Source of the DNA: Methylobacterium segetis
GTDB taxonomy: Bacteria; Pseudomonadota; Alphaproteobacteria; Rhizobiales; Beijerinckiaceae
Assembly: GCF_004348265.1 (NCBI RefSeq)
Contig: NZ_SMNT01000003.1
Span: 1 to 64,000 of the forward strand
Direction of reading: 5' to 3'
DNA: 64,000 nucleotides
Made by a program: the position numbers and the translations under genes
The notes under the pieces: generated by a model
Told to the model about the DNA's origin: nothing
What the model saw: only the letters and a program-made list of their open reading frames with translations
Database searches by the model: none
Shown here: one piece after another, positions 19,572-25,083 of the stretch
Layout of the letters: every line of letters starts with the position of its first letter
How positions within the stretch are numbered: the stretch's first letter is position 1

Positions 19572-19750
19572 GTCCCCAACTTGTTTTGGCCGCAAAAGCG
19601 CGCGATCGACTCCCCCGGTGTCGCGGCAGGAAGCGGTGGGCGCCCTCTCCCGGCCCGGGCTGCTCGCCTTGCCGCTGGCGGGGGCGGCCTTTACCACTGC
19701 CCGGAACCTGAGCCGTATCGTTGCCGCCGCCCGGCCGGAATTCACGCCCG

Positions 19751-22636
19751 TTGCGCATCCTCGCCACCGTCCTCGCCGCCCTCGTCACGGCTCTCGTCGG
19801 ATCGCTGCTCCTCAGCGCTCCGGCGCGCGCGGTCGAGGCGGTCCGCGTCACCCTCGACTCCCCCGTGATCGACCTGACGCCGATGATCGAGCGCTACCGC
19901 TCGGACGGCGACCTGATCCAGATCTCGACGGCGCCGGGCAAGGACGGGATCGTTCGCCGCATCGTGGTGAAGGCGCGCGATGCGGGCGCGCGGCCCGACT
20001 GGATGGTGTTCGCCCTCACCAATGACACCGACGAGCAGATCGACCGGCTCCTCGTCGCCCCGCATTTCCGCCTCGTCGGCTCGGGCGTGGTCTGGCCCGA
20101 TCTCGGCGGCTCGCGCATCGCCGCCATCACCGCGAGCCAGGGCATCCGGCCGGAGCGGGACGAGAACCCGGAAGCCGACCAGTTCGTCATTACCCTCGAT
20201 CCCGGCACGACCGTCACCTTCGTGGCGGAGCTGAGAGGGCCGAACATCCCGCAGGTCTACCTCTGGGACCAAGAAGCCTACCGCAAGAAGTCGACGGGCC
20301 TGACGCTCTACAAGGGCATCATCATCGGCATTGCGGGGCTCCTCGCCCTGTTCCTGACGATCATCTTCGTGGTGAAGGGCGCGATCATCTTCCCCGCCGC
20401 GGCCGCGCTCGCCTGGGCCGTGCTCGCCTATGCCTGCATCGATTTCGGCTTCCTGCAGCGGGTCTTCCCCGTCACCGAGGTGGCCGAGCGGGTCTACCGG
20501 GCCTCCGCCGAGGCGATCCTCGGCGCCACGCTCCTCGTCTTCCTGTTCGCCTACCTGAACCTCGCCCGCTGGCACGTGCGCTACAGCCACGTCGCCTTCT
20601 TCTGGCTCGCCTTCCTCGCCGGGCTCGTCGGGCTCGCGGTGTTCGATCCGCCGGTGGCGGCGGGCGTCGCCCGCATCTCGATGGCAGCGGTCGCCGGCGT
20701 CGGCCTGCTGCTCATCGTCTATCTCGCCGCGCATAACGGCTACGACCGGGCGATCCTCCTGGTCCCGACCTGGGCGCTCCTTCTCGTCTGGGTGGTGGCG
20801 GCGGGCTTCGCCATCACGGGGCAGATCGGATCGGACCTCGTGCAGCCGGCGCTGATCGGCGGCCTCGTCCTCGTCGTCATGCTGATCGGCTTCACGGTGA
20901 TGCAGCACGCCTTCGCGGGTGGCGGCCTCACCCACGCCCTCGTCTCCGACACCGAGCGGCGGGCGCTCGCGCTGACAGGCGCCGGGGACGTGGTGTTCGA
21001 CTGGGACGTGCCGGGCGACCGCGTCTTCGCCGGCCAGGAGATCGAGGGCCAGCTCGGCCTCAAGCGGGGCGCCCTCGAGGGTCCGGCCGCCAACTGGCTG
21101 AACCTCCTCCACCCCTTCGACGTCGAGCGCTACTCCGCGGCCCTCGACACGGTGATCGAGGAGCGGCGCGGCCGCATCGTCCACGATTTCCGCCTGCGCG
21201 CGGCCTCGGGTGCCTATTACTGGTACCGGCTGAAGGCCCGGCCCGTGATCGGCTCGGACGGCGAGGTCATCCGCATCGTCGGCACCATCGCCGACGTGAC
21301 CGAGCTCAAGACCGCCGAGGAACGGCTCCTGCACGACGCGGTCCACGACAGCCTCACGGGCCTGCCGAACCGCGAGCTGTTTGGTGACCGCCTCGACGCG
21401 GCGCTCGCCTTCGCGAGCCAGGACCCACGCCTGAAGCCCACCGTGATCGTGCTCGACATCGACCGGTTCAAGGCCATCAACGACGCGATCGGTCTCTCGG
21501 CCGGCGATTCGATCCTGCTCACGCTCTCCCGCCGCCTCGGCCGCCTGCTGCGCCCGCAGGACACCCTCGCCCGGGTCGCAGGCGACGAGTTCGCCGTGAT
21601 CCTGGTCTCGGAGCGTGATCCCGACCGGATCCTCGCCTTCGCCGAGATGATCCGGCGGACGATCGCCACGCCGATCACCTACGCGGACCGCGAGATCTTC
21701 CTCACCGTCTCGGTCGGCATCGCGCTGCACGAGACCGGGGCGGCGCAGAAGCGCGAGGAGGTCTTCAAGAACGCCGAGATCGCGATGGTCCAGGCCAAGC
21801 GCGGCGGCGGCGACCGCCTCGAAGTCTTCCGCGCCCATATGCGCAACGAGCGCTCGGACCGGCTGATGCTGGAGAGCGACCTGCGCCGGGCGATCGAGCG
21901 CAACGAGATCAAGGTCCTGTTCCAGCCGATCGTGCGGCTCGAGGATCGCACGGTGGCCGGATTCGAGGCGCTGCTGCGCTGGGACCACCCGAAACTCGGC
22001 CGGATCCCGCCCTCGACCTTCATCCCGATCGCCGAGGAGAGCGGCTTCATCGTCAATCTCGGCGTGTTCGCGCTGGAGCGAACGGCACTCGAACTCGCTG
22101 CCTGGCAACGCTCGCTCGATGTCGAGCCGCCGATCTTCGCGAGCGTCAACGTCTCCTCGCGCCAGCTTCTCCGGCACGATCTCCTGCACGATGTGAAGAC
22201 CGTGCTCGCCCGCTCAGGCGTGCTGCCGGGCTCGCTCAAGCTCGAGCTCACCGAGAGCCTCGTGATGGAGAACCCCGAATATGCCGCCCAGATGCTGGCG
22301 CGGATCCACGACCTCGGCGCCGGGCTGTCGCTCGACGATTTCGGCACCGGTTACTCGGCGCTGTCCTACCTGCAGCGCTTCCCCTTCGACACGATCAAGA
22401 TCGATCAGTCGTTCGTCCGCCAGATGGCCTCGGGCAAGAGCGTGATCCTGCGCTCGATCGTGAAGATGGCGACCGAGCTCGGCCTCGCCATCATCGCCGA
22501 GGGCGCCGAGTCGGAGGCCGACGCGCAGGCGCTGGCCGAACTCGGCTGCGAGTACGCGCAGGGTTACGCGTTCGGCGAGCCGATGACGATGCATCAGGCC
22601 CGCCAACTCGTCGGCGCGGCGCCGGAAGCCGCCTGA
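19751..22636 (+). CDS. 7TM sensor with PAS, GGDEF and EAL domains (c-di-GMP turnover)
   Basis: About 961 residues. A signal-like start (LRILATVLAALVTALVGSLLL) leads to a periplasmic beta-rich domain (to about 190). Then come exactly seven hydrophobic segments (about 195-405), a 7TMR-DISM architecture, and a PAS fold (about 415-540). The GGDEF domain has the active-site variant AGDEF (610-614). The EAL domain (EALLRW at 739, ELTES, DDFGTGYSAL at 862, KIDQSF) keeps the known catalytic motifs. It likely senses an envelope ligand and makes and/or degrades cyclic-di-GMP; with an Ala first residue in GGDEF, synthase activity is uncertain. Start is TTG at 19751 or 19721; neither has a clear ribosome site. 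Convergent with the response regulator at 22640. Confidence 0.88.
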   Translation: MRILATVLAALVTALVGSLLLSAPARAVEAVRVTLDSPVIDLTPMIERYRSDGDLIQISTAPGKDGIVRRIVVKARDAGARPDWMVFALTNDTDEQIDRLLVAPHFRLVGSGVVWPDLGGSRIAAITASQGIRPERDENPEADQFVITLDPGTTVTFVAELRGPNIPQVYLWDQEAYRKKSTGLTLYKGIIIGIAGLLALFLTIIFVVKGAIIFPAAAALAWAVLAYACIDFGFLQRVFPVTEVAERVYRASAEAILGATLLVFLFAYLNLARWHVRYSHVAFFWLAFLAGLVGLAVFDPPVAAGVARISMAAVAGVGLLLIVYLAAHNGYDRAILLVPTWALLLVWVVAAGFAITGQIGSDLVQPALIGGLVLVVMLIGFTVMQHAFAGGGLTHALVSDTERRALALTGAGDVVFDWDVPGDRVFAGQEIEGQLGLKRGALEGPAANWLNLLHPFDVERYSAALDTVIEERRGRIVHDFRLRAASGAYYWYRLKARPVIGSDGEVIRIVGTIADVTELKTAEERLLHDAVHDSLTGLPNRELFGDRLDAALAFASQDPRLKPTVIVLDIDRFKAINDAIGLSAGDSILLTLSRRLGRLLRPQDTLARVAGDEFAVILVSERDPDRILAFAEMIRRTIATPITYADREIFLTVSVGIALHETGAAQKREEVFKNAEIAMVQAKRGGGDRLEVFRAHMRNERSDRLMLESDLRRAIERNEIKVLFQPIVRLEDRTVAGFEALLRWDHPKLGRIPPSTFIPIAEESGFIVNLGVFALERTALELAAWQRSLDVEPPIFASVNVSSRQLLRHDLLHDVKTVLARSGVLPGSLKLELTESLVMENPEYAAQMLARIHDLGAGLSLDDFGTGYSALSYLQRFPFDTIKIDQSFVRQMASGKSVILRSIVKMATELGLAIIAEGAESEADAQALAELGCEYAQGYAFGEPMTMHQARQLVGAAPEAA

Positions 22637-22645
22637 TATTCAGGC
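22631..22645. terminator. Short dyad built from two convergent stop codons
   Basis: GCCTGA-TAT-TCAGGC. The TGA of the GGDEF/EAL gene and the TGA of the opposite response regulator lie in the two arms, and only 3 bp separate the genes. A 6-bp stem is weak alone. Confidence 0.3.
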
Positions 22646-23008
22646 CGGCGCGCGCGCGCAGAGCGAGGCCAGGGCCGCAACCAGTCGGCGGGCCTCGACC
22701 GGCTTGCGCTGGATCGGCAGGTCCGGCCACGCGAGGCGCATCTCGCGCGGCAGGATGCCGGCCGTGCAGATGAGCACCGGTATGCGCGCCGCGATGAGCC
22801 GGTGGGCCGCGGGCGTCGCCTCTCCGTCGGCGAGGTTGAGATCGAGGATGGCGGCATCGAGGCGCTCCGCCTCGATCAGGCGGATCGCGTCGCGGTTCGT
22901 GCGCGCGGGGCCGACCACGCACCCGTTCACGTCCTCGACGATGTCCATCAGTTCCATCGCGATCAGGATCTCGTCCTCGACGATGAGGACCTTTCGGCCA
23001 GTCAACAT
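22640..23008 (-). CDS. Single-domain response regulator (receiver only)
   Basis: 122 residues, entirely a CheY-like receiver: acidic pair E11/D12, phospho-acceptor D56 in AILDLNLA, Thr in LICTAG and Lys in QRKP. There is no output domain, so it acts by protein-protein contact or as a phosphate sink. No histidine kinase is adjacent; the neighbour on the other strand is a c-di-GMP enzyme. ATG at 23008. Confidence 0.88.
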   Translation of the reverse strand: MLTGRKVLIVEDEILIAMELMDIVEDVNGCVVGPARTNRDAIRLIEAERLDAAILDLNLADGEATPAAHRLIAARIPVLICTAGILPREMRLAWPDLPIQRKPVEARRLVAALASLCARAPA

Positions 23009-23348
23009 CGATCGCTCCCAGACAGGCGCCTGAGCGAGCCGCGGCTCGTTCCATGTCGTGCGAAAGGGGTTTGCACAGCGCCGCGTCGCGGCCTCCCGGC
23101 CGCTGCCGAAGCACCGCCGCGCTGCCGGGTCAGGATGCGGCGGGCAACCGGGCGCGTCAACGCGATTGCGGGAACGGCGGGAGGCGCGGCGCGAGATTTA
23201 TTTTTGCCGGCTCGCGGAACCTTCAGGCCGCGGTGACTGGCATCTTGAGCGATGCATTTAAACCTCCCTTAACCATGATGGTCGAAGACTGGATCTCGGT
23301 TCGGTCGCGGCGTCCGTCTGCGGAGTCCGGCCCTGTGGGAGACGCGTG
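23009..23348. other. Divergent intergenic region with a CtrA box
   Basis: About 340 bp between the response regulator (minus) and the gene at 23349 (plus). It contains an AT-rich patch near 23200-23280 and the CtrA-type site at 23258-23273. No gene is seen. Confidence 0.5.
23258..23273 (+). promoter_or_regulatory. CtrA binding box TTAA-N7-TTAAC
   Basis: TTAA at 23258-23261 and TTAAC at 23269-23273 are separated by exactly seven bases, a full match to the CtrA consensus known from Caulobacter and used across alphaproteobacteria. It lies 75 bp upstream of the ATG at 23349 in an otherwise GC-rich region, so chance occurrence is less likely. Confidence 0.65.
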
Positions 23349-23696
23349 ATGGCCGATGTGGCGCGGCGGGTACGTGATGGCGGCGGGTCCGACCTCGTGC
23401 GGCGGCTGATCGCGCGGCCGATCCGCTTCGACGTCGCGCGGCACGTGCCGGTCCCGGTATCCTCGCCGGCGGCGACGCCGATGGACGAGGATTCCGACGA
23501 GCCCGGCGATCTCGTTCGCCTGCGGGCCGAGATGACCGTGATGAAGGCGGTCCTCGATGCCGAACGCCGCGAGACGGCGAAGCTTCGGGCGACGGTGCGG
23601 AGCGTCACCGGCCCCGAGCCGGTCGGCGAGGAGGCACGCGCCGTCCGCGACCGCTGGGCGACGCTCGTCGACGGCATCCTGAACGCGCAGCGCTGA
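23349..23696 (+). CDS. Small hypothetical protein behind a CtrA box
   Basis: 115 residues, ATG at 23349 (a GTG directly before it is an alternative). The N-terminal half is basic and proline-containing; the second half, about residues 52-88, is a charged helix likely to form a coiled coil (LRAEMTVMKAVLDAERRETAKLR-type heptads). There is no signal peptide or membrane segment. I do not recognise the family. The CtrA box suggests cell-cycle or motility-linked control. The next gene starts 36 bp downstream. Confidence 0.55.
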   Translation: MADVARRVRDGGGSDLVRRLIARPIRFDVARHVPVPVSSPAATPMDEDSDEPGDLVRLRAEMTVMKAVLDAERRETAKLRATVRSVTGPEPVGEEARAVRDRWATLVDGILNAQR

Positions 23697-23732: not shown

Positions 23733-24662
23733 ATGAGCGCCCGCTGCTCACTCGTCGTCAACGGCAAGTCCGTGCGTGTCTCCACCGGCGATACGCCTCT
23801 GGAGGCCGCGCTCGCCGAGGGTATGATCGCGTCCCCGCAAGGGATGCACGGGGCCGCAGCGCCCGGCCACGCCGCGCCGGCAGCGCGACGGATGCCCGGA
23901 CGCGGTCACCGGCCCGACATGACGAAGCTGCCGCTGCCCCGGCCGCAGCCCACGATCACGTTGCCGGCCGTGCCGGCCACTGCGCCGGTCAAGCGCACGG
24001 GCACGGTCACGGAGATGCGCGCGCTCTCGCCCCGCGTGATCGAGGTGGTGGTCACGGTGACCCGGCGCCTGCCGCTCGAGCCCGGCCATCAGGTCGTCCT
24101 CGCGCTCGATGGGCTTGAGCCGCTGACCCTCTCCCCGACCCTGCGCGTGGACGGTTCCGCGGAGCTGAACGAACTCGTCTTCCACCTTCCGCACGATCCC
24201 GCCGCACCGGGACCGGCCGCCTCCATCGCGGTCGGCGCCGCCGCCAAGGTGCGGGGCCCTGTCGGGCGCGCTCAGTACCGGCCGGGTGGCGGGCGTCTGA
24301 TCCTCGTCTCGGACGGGGCGGGCTTCGCACCCGTCTGGGCCGTGGCGCGGGCCGCGCGCTACATCGAGCCCGCCCGCGACATGGCGCTCGTCATCGGCGC
24401 CCGCGACCCGCTCGACCTCTACATGCGCCCGTCCATCGACTGGCTGCGCGCAACCGGCATCGGACGGATTACCCTCGTGGCCGACCGGAGCCGCCAGCGA
24501 CCGCCGGATGTGCGTCCGGGACCCCTCACCGCGCACGTGCCGCCCCTGCGGACCACCGACGTGGTGCATGTGGCCGGATCGGGCTCGACGGTCGGCGCCG
24601 TCGAGGTCCTCGCGGCTGCCGCCGGAGCGCGCTGCTATCCGCTCCTCGTCCCCGGGGCATGA
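23733..24662 (+). CDS. Ferredoxin-reductase-like protein with a degenerate [2Fe-2S] domain
   Basis: 309 residues, ATG 23733 with AGGAGA upstream. Residues 1-35 resemble the start of a plant-type ferredoxin domain (LVVNGKSVRVSTGDTPLEA, then LAEGMIA), but the four cluster cysteines are missing and the text runs into a Gly/Ala/Pro linker to about 90. Residues about 90-309 fit an FNR-like module: an FAD/flavin barrel (EPGHQVVLAL) and an NAD-binding half (GGGRLILVSDGAGFAPVWAVAR, then VVHVAGSGSTVGAVEVL). It may be an oxidoreductase that has lost its iron-sulfur cluster and uses a separate electron partner, or a non-redox relative. Possibly co-transcribed with the small genes on either side. Confidence 0.6.
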   Translation: MSARCSLVVNGKSVRVSTGDTPLEAALAEGMIASPQGMHGAAAPGHAAPAARRMPGRGHRPDMTKLPLPRPQPTITLPAVPATAPVKRTGTVTEMRALSPRVIEVVVTVTRRLPLEPGHQVVLALDGLEPLTLSPTLRVDGSAELNELVFHLPHDPAAPGPAASIAVGAAAKVRGPVGRAQYRPGGGRLILVSDGAGFAPVWAVARAARYIEPARDMALVIGARDPLDLYMRPSIDWLRATGIGRITLVADRSRQRPPDVRPGPLTAHVPPLRTTDVVHVAGSGSTVGAVEVLAAAAGARCYPLLVPGA

Positions 24663-24741: not shown

Positions 24742-25083
24742 GTGCCGTTCGACCTCTCCGAAGCCAGACGGACCCGTGATCTCGTGAGGGATCTGCACGA
24801 CCTCACGGAGAAGCTGCGCGCCACCGTGCAGACCTCGCGCGCCATCGCGGCGCGCGCCGAGGCCCGCGGCGAGGCCGGCCGGACTTCCCTGAAGAGCCTG
24901 CTCATCTCCGAACCGCACGATCCGGTCGAGGGCGTCATCGACGGCTTGGCCTATGCGTGCGAGCACAGCGCCGCCTACGGCGACCCTGCCGTGGATTCCC
25001 TGATCCGAACGGCCCTCTGGCTGATCGGCCGGAAGATCGGCGCGCGCGAGAGTTCCGGAGCCGAGGGGAAGACCCTGCACTGA
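24742..25083 (+). CDS. Hypothetical protein, helical
   Basis: 113 residues from GTG 24742 with GGGAG eight bases upstream. The first 50 residues are strongly helical and charged (SEARRTRDLVRDLHDLTEKLRA, then AIAARAEARGEAG in pieces), the rest a mixed segment with ACEHSAAYGDPAVDSLIRTALWLIGRKIG in parts. No signal peptide; no family recognised. Convergent with glgP, which ends at 25178. Confidence 0.5.
   Translation: MPFDLSEARRTRDLVRDLHDLTEKLRATVQTSRAIAARAEARGEAGRTSLKSLLISEPHDPVEGVIDGLAYACEHSAAYGDPAVDSLIRTALWLIGRKIGARESSGAEGKTLH

Follow-up and report, generated by a model that had tools for sequence, protein, structure and literature searches.

What does a full CtrA box do in front of a gene with no name? 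The question arises from a 64-kb stretch of Methylobacterium segetis DNA (the window), in which the original prediction placed such a box 75 bp before the ATG of an unknown coiled-coil gene and between that gene and a divergent gene for a receiver-only regulator, so that either might be its target. The answer that we favour, on the strength of sequence comparison and with considerable confidence, is that positions 23258-23273 form a predicted CtrA-binding box that most likely activates a two-gene unit made up of the genes starting at 23349 and 23733. The box is found unchanged before the same two genes in the Methylobacterium relatives examined, which places the pair very probably in the CtrA programme.

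Conservation of the CtrA box

The box lies on the forward strand, matches TTAA-N7-TTAAC and reads TTAAACCTCCCTTAAC, followed by CATG; its end, taken together with 23274-23276, gives the extended half-site TTAACCAT (forward strand, 23269-23276). It is the single TTAA-N7-TTAA in the whole window, and no such site appeared in 100 dinucleotide-preserving shuffles of the window. Exactly 75 nt (23274-23348) separate it from the ATG at 23349, and the full-consensus box described in the original prediction is thus borne out in both its sequence and its position. A GTG at 23346, one codon before the ATG, is a possible alternative start; for either codon the GGGAGA at 23337-23342 could plausibly bind the ribosome. 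In the genome of M. segetis as a whole (5.59 Mb), TTAA-N7-TTAAC has 40 strand-wise matches, spread over 29 places, and the reversed control pattern has 3: the motif is rare and enriched, yet not unique.

Conservation of the half-sites in related species had been put forward as the check on the original prediction, and it turned out to be complete. All 108 orthologous promoters of the genus (105 distinct 60-mers) contain a perfect TTAA-N7-TTAAC, and 103 of them have the TTAA-N7-TTAACCAT form, in which the half-site carries CCAT. The first half-site has a mean pairwise identity of 1.0 and TTAACCAT one of 0.99, while the DNA flanking the box is near background, with values of 0.31 at flank positions -60 to -20, 0.39 at -20 to 0 and 0.36-0.38 at +32 to +64, where 0.28 is expected from composition alone. 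The spacer between the half-sites (23262-23268) is kept more strictly than the CtrA consensus requires, with a purine as first base and C as sixth in every one of the 108 promoters. A scan of named genomes found the box in 68/68 loci, 64 of them with CCAT, and in only 2 of 1004 control windows, mostly coding, taken from the same loci; these loci (66 titled Methylobacterium or Methylorubrum and two Beijerinckiaceae MAGs) come largely from the genomes that supplied the 108 promoters. The spacing between the second half-site and the start codon ranges over 64-104 nt in the first 36 loci (the start being unsure in one, L036), so it is not coding sequence that carries the match.

Two other boxes served as benchmarks. 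The fliL/flgF box, read in 30 of 59 matching genomes, is perfect in all 30, and the ftsK box, read in 30 of 58, is perfect in 14 and has one mismatch in 16. With 108/108 against 30/30, the site studied here is kept as strictly as the flagellar CtrA box.

The regulator is present, and the M. segetis genome has further boxes to go with it. The CtrA model NF045991 scores above its cut-off in the M. segetis genome and in 41/41 genus genomes; at E 1e-75 it matches only Caulobacter among 14 control genomes. Boxes elsewhere in the M. segetis genome lie beside fliL/flgF, an operon for flagellar rod proteins, two MCPs, ftsK, a gene for a MinD/ParA-type ATPase and lpxC, with others next to a gene identified by eye as rpsB and next to genes to which no name was given. 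One neighbour in the rod-protein operon is confirmed by Pfam; the candidate that we take to be FlgB has no Pfam match. The flagellar, chemotaxis, FtsK and MinD/ParA neighbours are the company expected of CtrA, whereas LpxC is not, and as some of these boxes stand at genes without an obvious link to CtrA, a box alone is no proof of membership in the regulon. The original prediction saw in the box a reason to make the hypothetical protein a cell-cycle or motility candidate; what the box does make of its gene is a likely CtrA target.

More than one NF045991 match at E<=1e-75 is present in 12 of the 41 genus genomes, M. segetis included, with up to six in one (G023) and some of the matches being contig-end fragments. 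In G310 some 10.8 kb separate two ctrA copies that have transposase and resolvase genes in their vicinity, and in L330 a resolvase gene is found ~6 kb from a ctrA copy; given such neighbours, mobile DNA may be what carries the additional copies of ctrA. The M. segetis genome itself has four partial ctrA matches (C124, C10, C117 and C61), of which two are missing their N-terminal part and two others their C-terminal part, and these are possibly two ctrA copies broken by assembly.

Promoter anatomy and the target of the box

Passages of PMC11264516 and PMC6180460 locate activating CtrA boxes near -35, and the latter describes, for CtrA promoters of R. sphaeroides, a start 23-24 nt after the box, an invariant A at -11 and G at -4. 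When this rule is carried over to the window, the predicted transcription start region falls at 23296-23297 (forward strand), 23-24 nt after the last box base, where the window has T and C, not purines. A start at 23296 puts the box at -38 to -23, with A at -11 in 89/108 promoters and G at -4 in 12/108; for a start at 23297 the corresponding counts are 73/108 and 65/108. The promoters contain a second conserved block, which begins 26 nt past the first box base with C or G (108/108), followed by A (89/108), and has T at its sixth position in 85/108, for a genus consensus of about SAWNNT. In the window this block reads GAAGAC (forward strand, 23284-23289), a putative -10 element that is weak in M. 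segetis itself, with C, not T, at the sixth position. We infer that the block is the -10 element of a CtrA promoter. At the same place relative to the other boxes of the M. segetis genome there is a slight excess of A (12 of 39 oriented sites, palindromic sites being counted both ways) that is not clearly an enrichment.

In the mechanism that we propose, CtrA would bind at about -38 to -23 and take over the -35 contact, and polymerase would start near 23296-23297. The genes at 23349 and 23733 would then be transcribed together on one transcript, and the two proteins, working together, would have an accessory and not a catalytic part in some process timed by CtrA, for example division, polarity or motility. 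Several features speak for this reading: the conserved box, its fixed orientation, the -10-like block, the presence of CtrA and the boxes found at flagellar, chemotaxis and division genes.

A box as such does not tell activation from repression. The opposite effect, in which CtrA binds the box yet represses the pair, for instance by covering a -10 element, the pair being expressed at low CtrA levels, nevertheless strikes us as unlikely. Repression by CtrA half-sites that lie over the -10 element is described for C. crescentus in passages of PMC6180460 and PMC11264516; the box considered here, however, is a full site and not a half-site, and the conserved -10-like block is separate from it, downstream, and spaced as in activated promoters. 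Nor does the receiver gene make a convincing target. It occupies 22640-23008 on the reverse strand (Response_reg, E 5.3e-8), with 250 nt between its start and the box, and in the window and 11 other loci of 36 it is indeed divergent with the box between. It is, however, a facultative neighbour, detected in those 12 loci and not detected in the upstream flank searched (1.5 kb, shorter in L009) in the remaining 24, all of which keep the box, whereas matches to the coiled-coil and reductase-like genes stand at the box in 36/36. The orientation of the box is likewise unchanged in 36/36, with the extended half-site always directed towards the coiled-coil gene and the receiver start about 110-261 nt away. 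The suggestion that the box could control either neighbour therefore survives for the coiled-coil gene, while the receiver gene was rejected as its target; that the box serves the receiver gene, or both genes, is in our estimate very improbable.

There is equally little to recommend the idea that some other regulator, or a general promoter element, accounts for the conservation instead of CtrA. Conservation of the spacer past the CtrA consensus, with its unvarying C at the sixth base, would fit such a cause, but published CtrA motifs (in passages of PMC6180460) include the full site as well as the TTAACCAT variant, the same full site marks fliL/flgF in all 30 relatives read, and GANTC (CcrM) sites are under-represented rather than enriched, being found in 19/108 promoters against a mean of 36.5 in shuffles. 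A chance match can be dismissed: the presence of the box in every orthologous promoter refutes it, and the empty shuffles and the gulf between the named loci and their control windows leave it a negligible probability. Activation of the gene pair by CtrA is thus the reading that we retain.

Other neighbours were also recorded. Upstream of the box, 19721-22636 encodes a GGDEF-EAL protein that also has PAS and 7TM sensor domains, and its like stands beside the box in 30/36 loci; in 13/36 the box comes 24-63 nt past the end of the upstream GGDEF-EAL match. A c-di-GMP link between this protein and the gene pair is possible. Downstream of the pair, a small gene (forward strand, 24742-25083; 113 aa) occurs in 4/36 loci, all from close relatives (L001, L002, L003 and L005), and its product has no Pfam or NCBIfam match.

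A small helical protein and a degenerate reductase

The first gene of the unit (forward strand, 23349-23696) encodes a 115 aa protein with a conserved N-terminal SDxVRRLIARPIR motif, a variable acidic/Pro linker and two C-terminal helices. The helices, at residues 51-87 and 94-111, are both predicted with confidence (mean pLDDT of the model, 72) and fit the label of coiled coil given to the gene at the outset, although the coiled coil itself is putative. For the protein, Pfam gives nothing above cut-off, NCBIfam nothing up to E 1 and a fold search no match, and a search of PDB sequences returned weak coiled-coil matches only, troponin I among them (best E 0.022). Among coiled-coil division proteins, DivIC matches the window protein at E 0.016 and 15.4 bits, below the curated cut-off of 28.9, and ZapB has no match in the window protein and matches in 3 of 35 family members (best E 0.0086). 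Eukaryotic coiled-coil families match more members, as in the cases of Sos7 (17/35) and Macoilin (10/35).

A profile of this family, A1, was made from 35 of the 36 loci, leaving aside L036, which has no clean start. It matches 109 of 111 genus genomes, and an orthologue was accepted in 108, the match in G326 (E 8.3e-5) being dropped as a non-orthologue. The other two genomes with no accepted orthologue are G012, where a contig end cuts the reductase gene short, and G356, which has neither gene. In the first search, matches were found in 36/37 genus genomes and 0/24 genomes from other families of the order; in a family-wide sample of 248 genomes there were 16 within the genus and two weak ones outside (G202, E 2.5e-4; G115, E 9.1e-4). 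The loci of these two, 3.1-3.2 kb in length, have neither a box nor homologues of the neighbouring genes and were left out of the counts. The gene pair appears to be specific to the genus.

A gap of 36 nt leads to the gene for a degenerate ferredoxin-NAD(P) reductase-like protein (forward strand, 23733-24662; 309 aa), the probable second gene of the unit. Comparison of the protein with GcoB (5ogx) gives a profile E of 9.5e-12 and a Foldseek E of 9e-13, indicating an FNR-type fold; the model has a mean pLDDT of 75, with residues 30-80 below 50. Alignment A2 covers 34 of the 36 loci, without L019 and L036, and was set against 20 comparison proteins (10 from other genera and 10 paralogues from the genus), all of which keep the core cysteines and arginine. 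At the five columns of the [2Fe-2S] cysteines, the comparison proteins have 18, 10, 20, 20 and 20 cysteines and the 34 members none at any column. The FAD motif RxYS keeps its Arg in 5/34 and its Tyr in 3/34, against 20/20 and 17/20 in the comparison proteins, while in the NAD motif GxGxxP the first Gly is retained in 15/34 (Glu in 19), the second in 34/34 and the Pro in 19/34. The genus paralogues are drawn from 14 genomes that have a second, intact-looking reductase match (40-44% identity), 10 of which were read.

The reductase-like proteins linked to the box make up one side of a branch with support of 100/100, at which long branches meet. Relatives of the reductase were found in 10 of 43 genera sampled, counting Methylobacterium itself, and in the other genera a full box was present in 0/20 upstream stretches of about 1.2 kb each. 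In 15 of those 20 stretches a similar-looking frame of 374-409 aa precedes the intact reductase, and the one tested matches Pfam EB_dh. Taken together, the branch, the loss of cofactor motifs and the context in other genera suggest that a duplicated electron-transfer subunit was stripped of its cofactors and given a CtrA promoter and a new partner. The reductase-like protein has many invariant residues (mean column identity 65% in A2), which speaks for continuing selection, although an in-frame stop interrupts its frame in G036. Two reductases outside the genus, L188 and L189, differ in the spacing of their cysteines and also in their upstream neighbours (stretches L175 and L178).

Comparison with known systems

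Among the papers listed by searches of the openly accessible literature we recognised no description of this promoter or of the gene pair; passages of PMC2877005 mention Methylobacterium once, as background. A nameless pair of proteins, found in nearly every Methylobacterium genome searched, is now tied to CtrA by a strictly kept box. Should the pair act in the cell cycle, it would give methylotrophs a CtrA output peculiar to their lineage and would add a further example of a metabolic-enzyme fold seemingly turned regulator.

The box has much in common with the CtrA-activated promoters of C. crescentus and R. sphaeroides, with which it shares the same full TTAA-N7-TTAA and the TTAACCAT variant. 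The likeness to R. sphaeroides extends to a conserved A at about -11 if the start is set 23-24 nt after the box, as in passages of PMC6180460. It differs from the promoters of both species in that the bases of its spacer are unusually conserved, that its target genes have no known counterpart and that it is known here from sequence.

Each of the two proteins can also be set beside more familiar ones. Like the small coiled-coil division proteins DivIC and ZapB, the 115 aa protein is short and helical, and there are weak matches between them; unlike them, the window protein stays below the DivIC cut-off, and its family has no transmembrane segment that could be seen by eye. The 309 aa family has the same fold and N-terminal hairpin as the Fer2-FAD-NAD reductases, represented by GcoB (5ogx), the BenC-type enzyme 1krh, the carbazole dioxygenase reductase 7c3a and the intact Methylobacterium paralogues. 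It departs from them in having no Fe-S cysteines in any of its 34 members, in having mostly lost RxYS and the C-terminal tail, and in sharing its locus with a CtrA box and a coiled-coil gene.

One further idea is speculative and rather doubtful, namely that a CtrA-timed pseudo-reductase, once a duplicate and now without cofactors, may work with a new small helical adaptor to sense the redox or pyridine-nucleotide state of the cell or relay it to division or polarity, in the manner of KidO but with a separate origin. According to passages of PMC7083601, KidO and GdhZ are NAD(H)-binding regulators of cell division in C. crescentus. The comparison is offered as a bold analogy and not as homology, NAD binding and a role in division being known in the C. 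crescentus proteins; what the two systems would share is an oxidoreductase homologue tied to the CtrA pathway, in the Methylobacterium pair by its promoter only.
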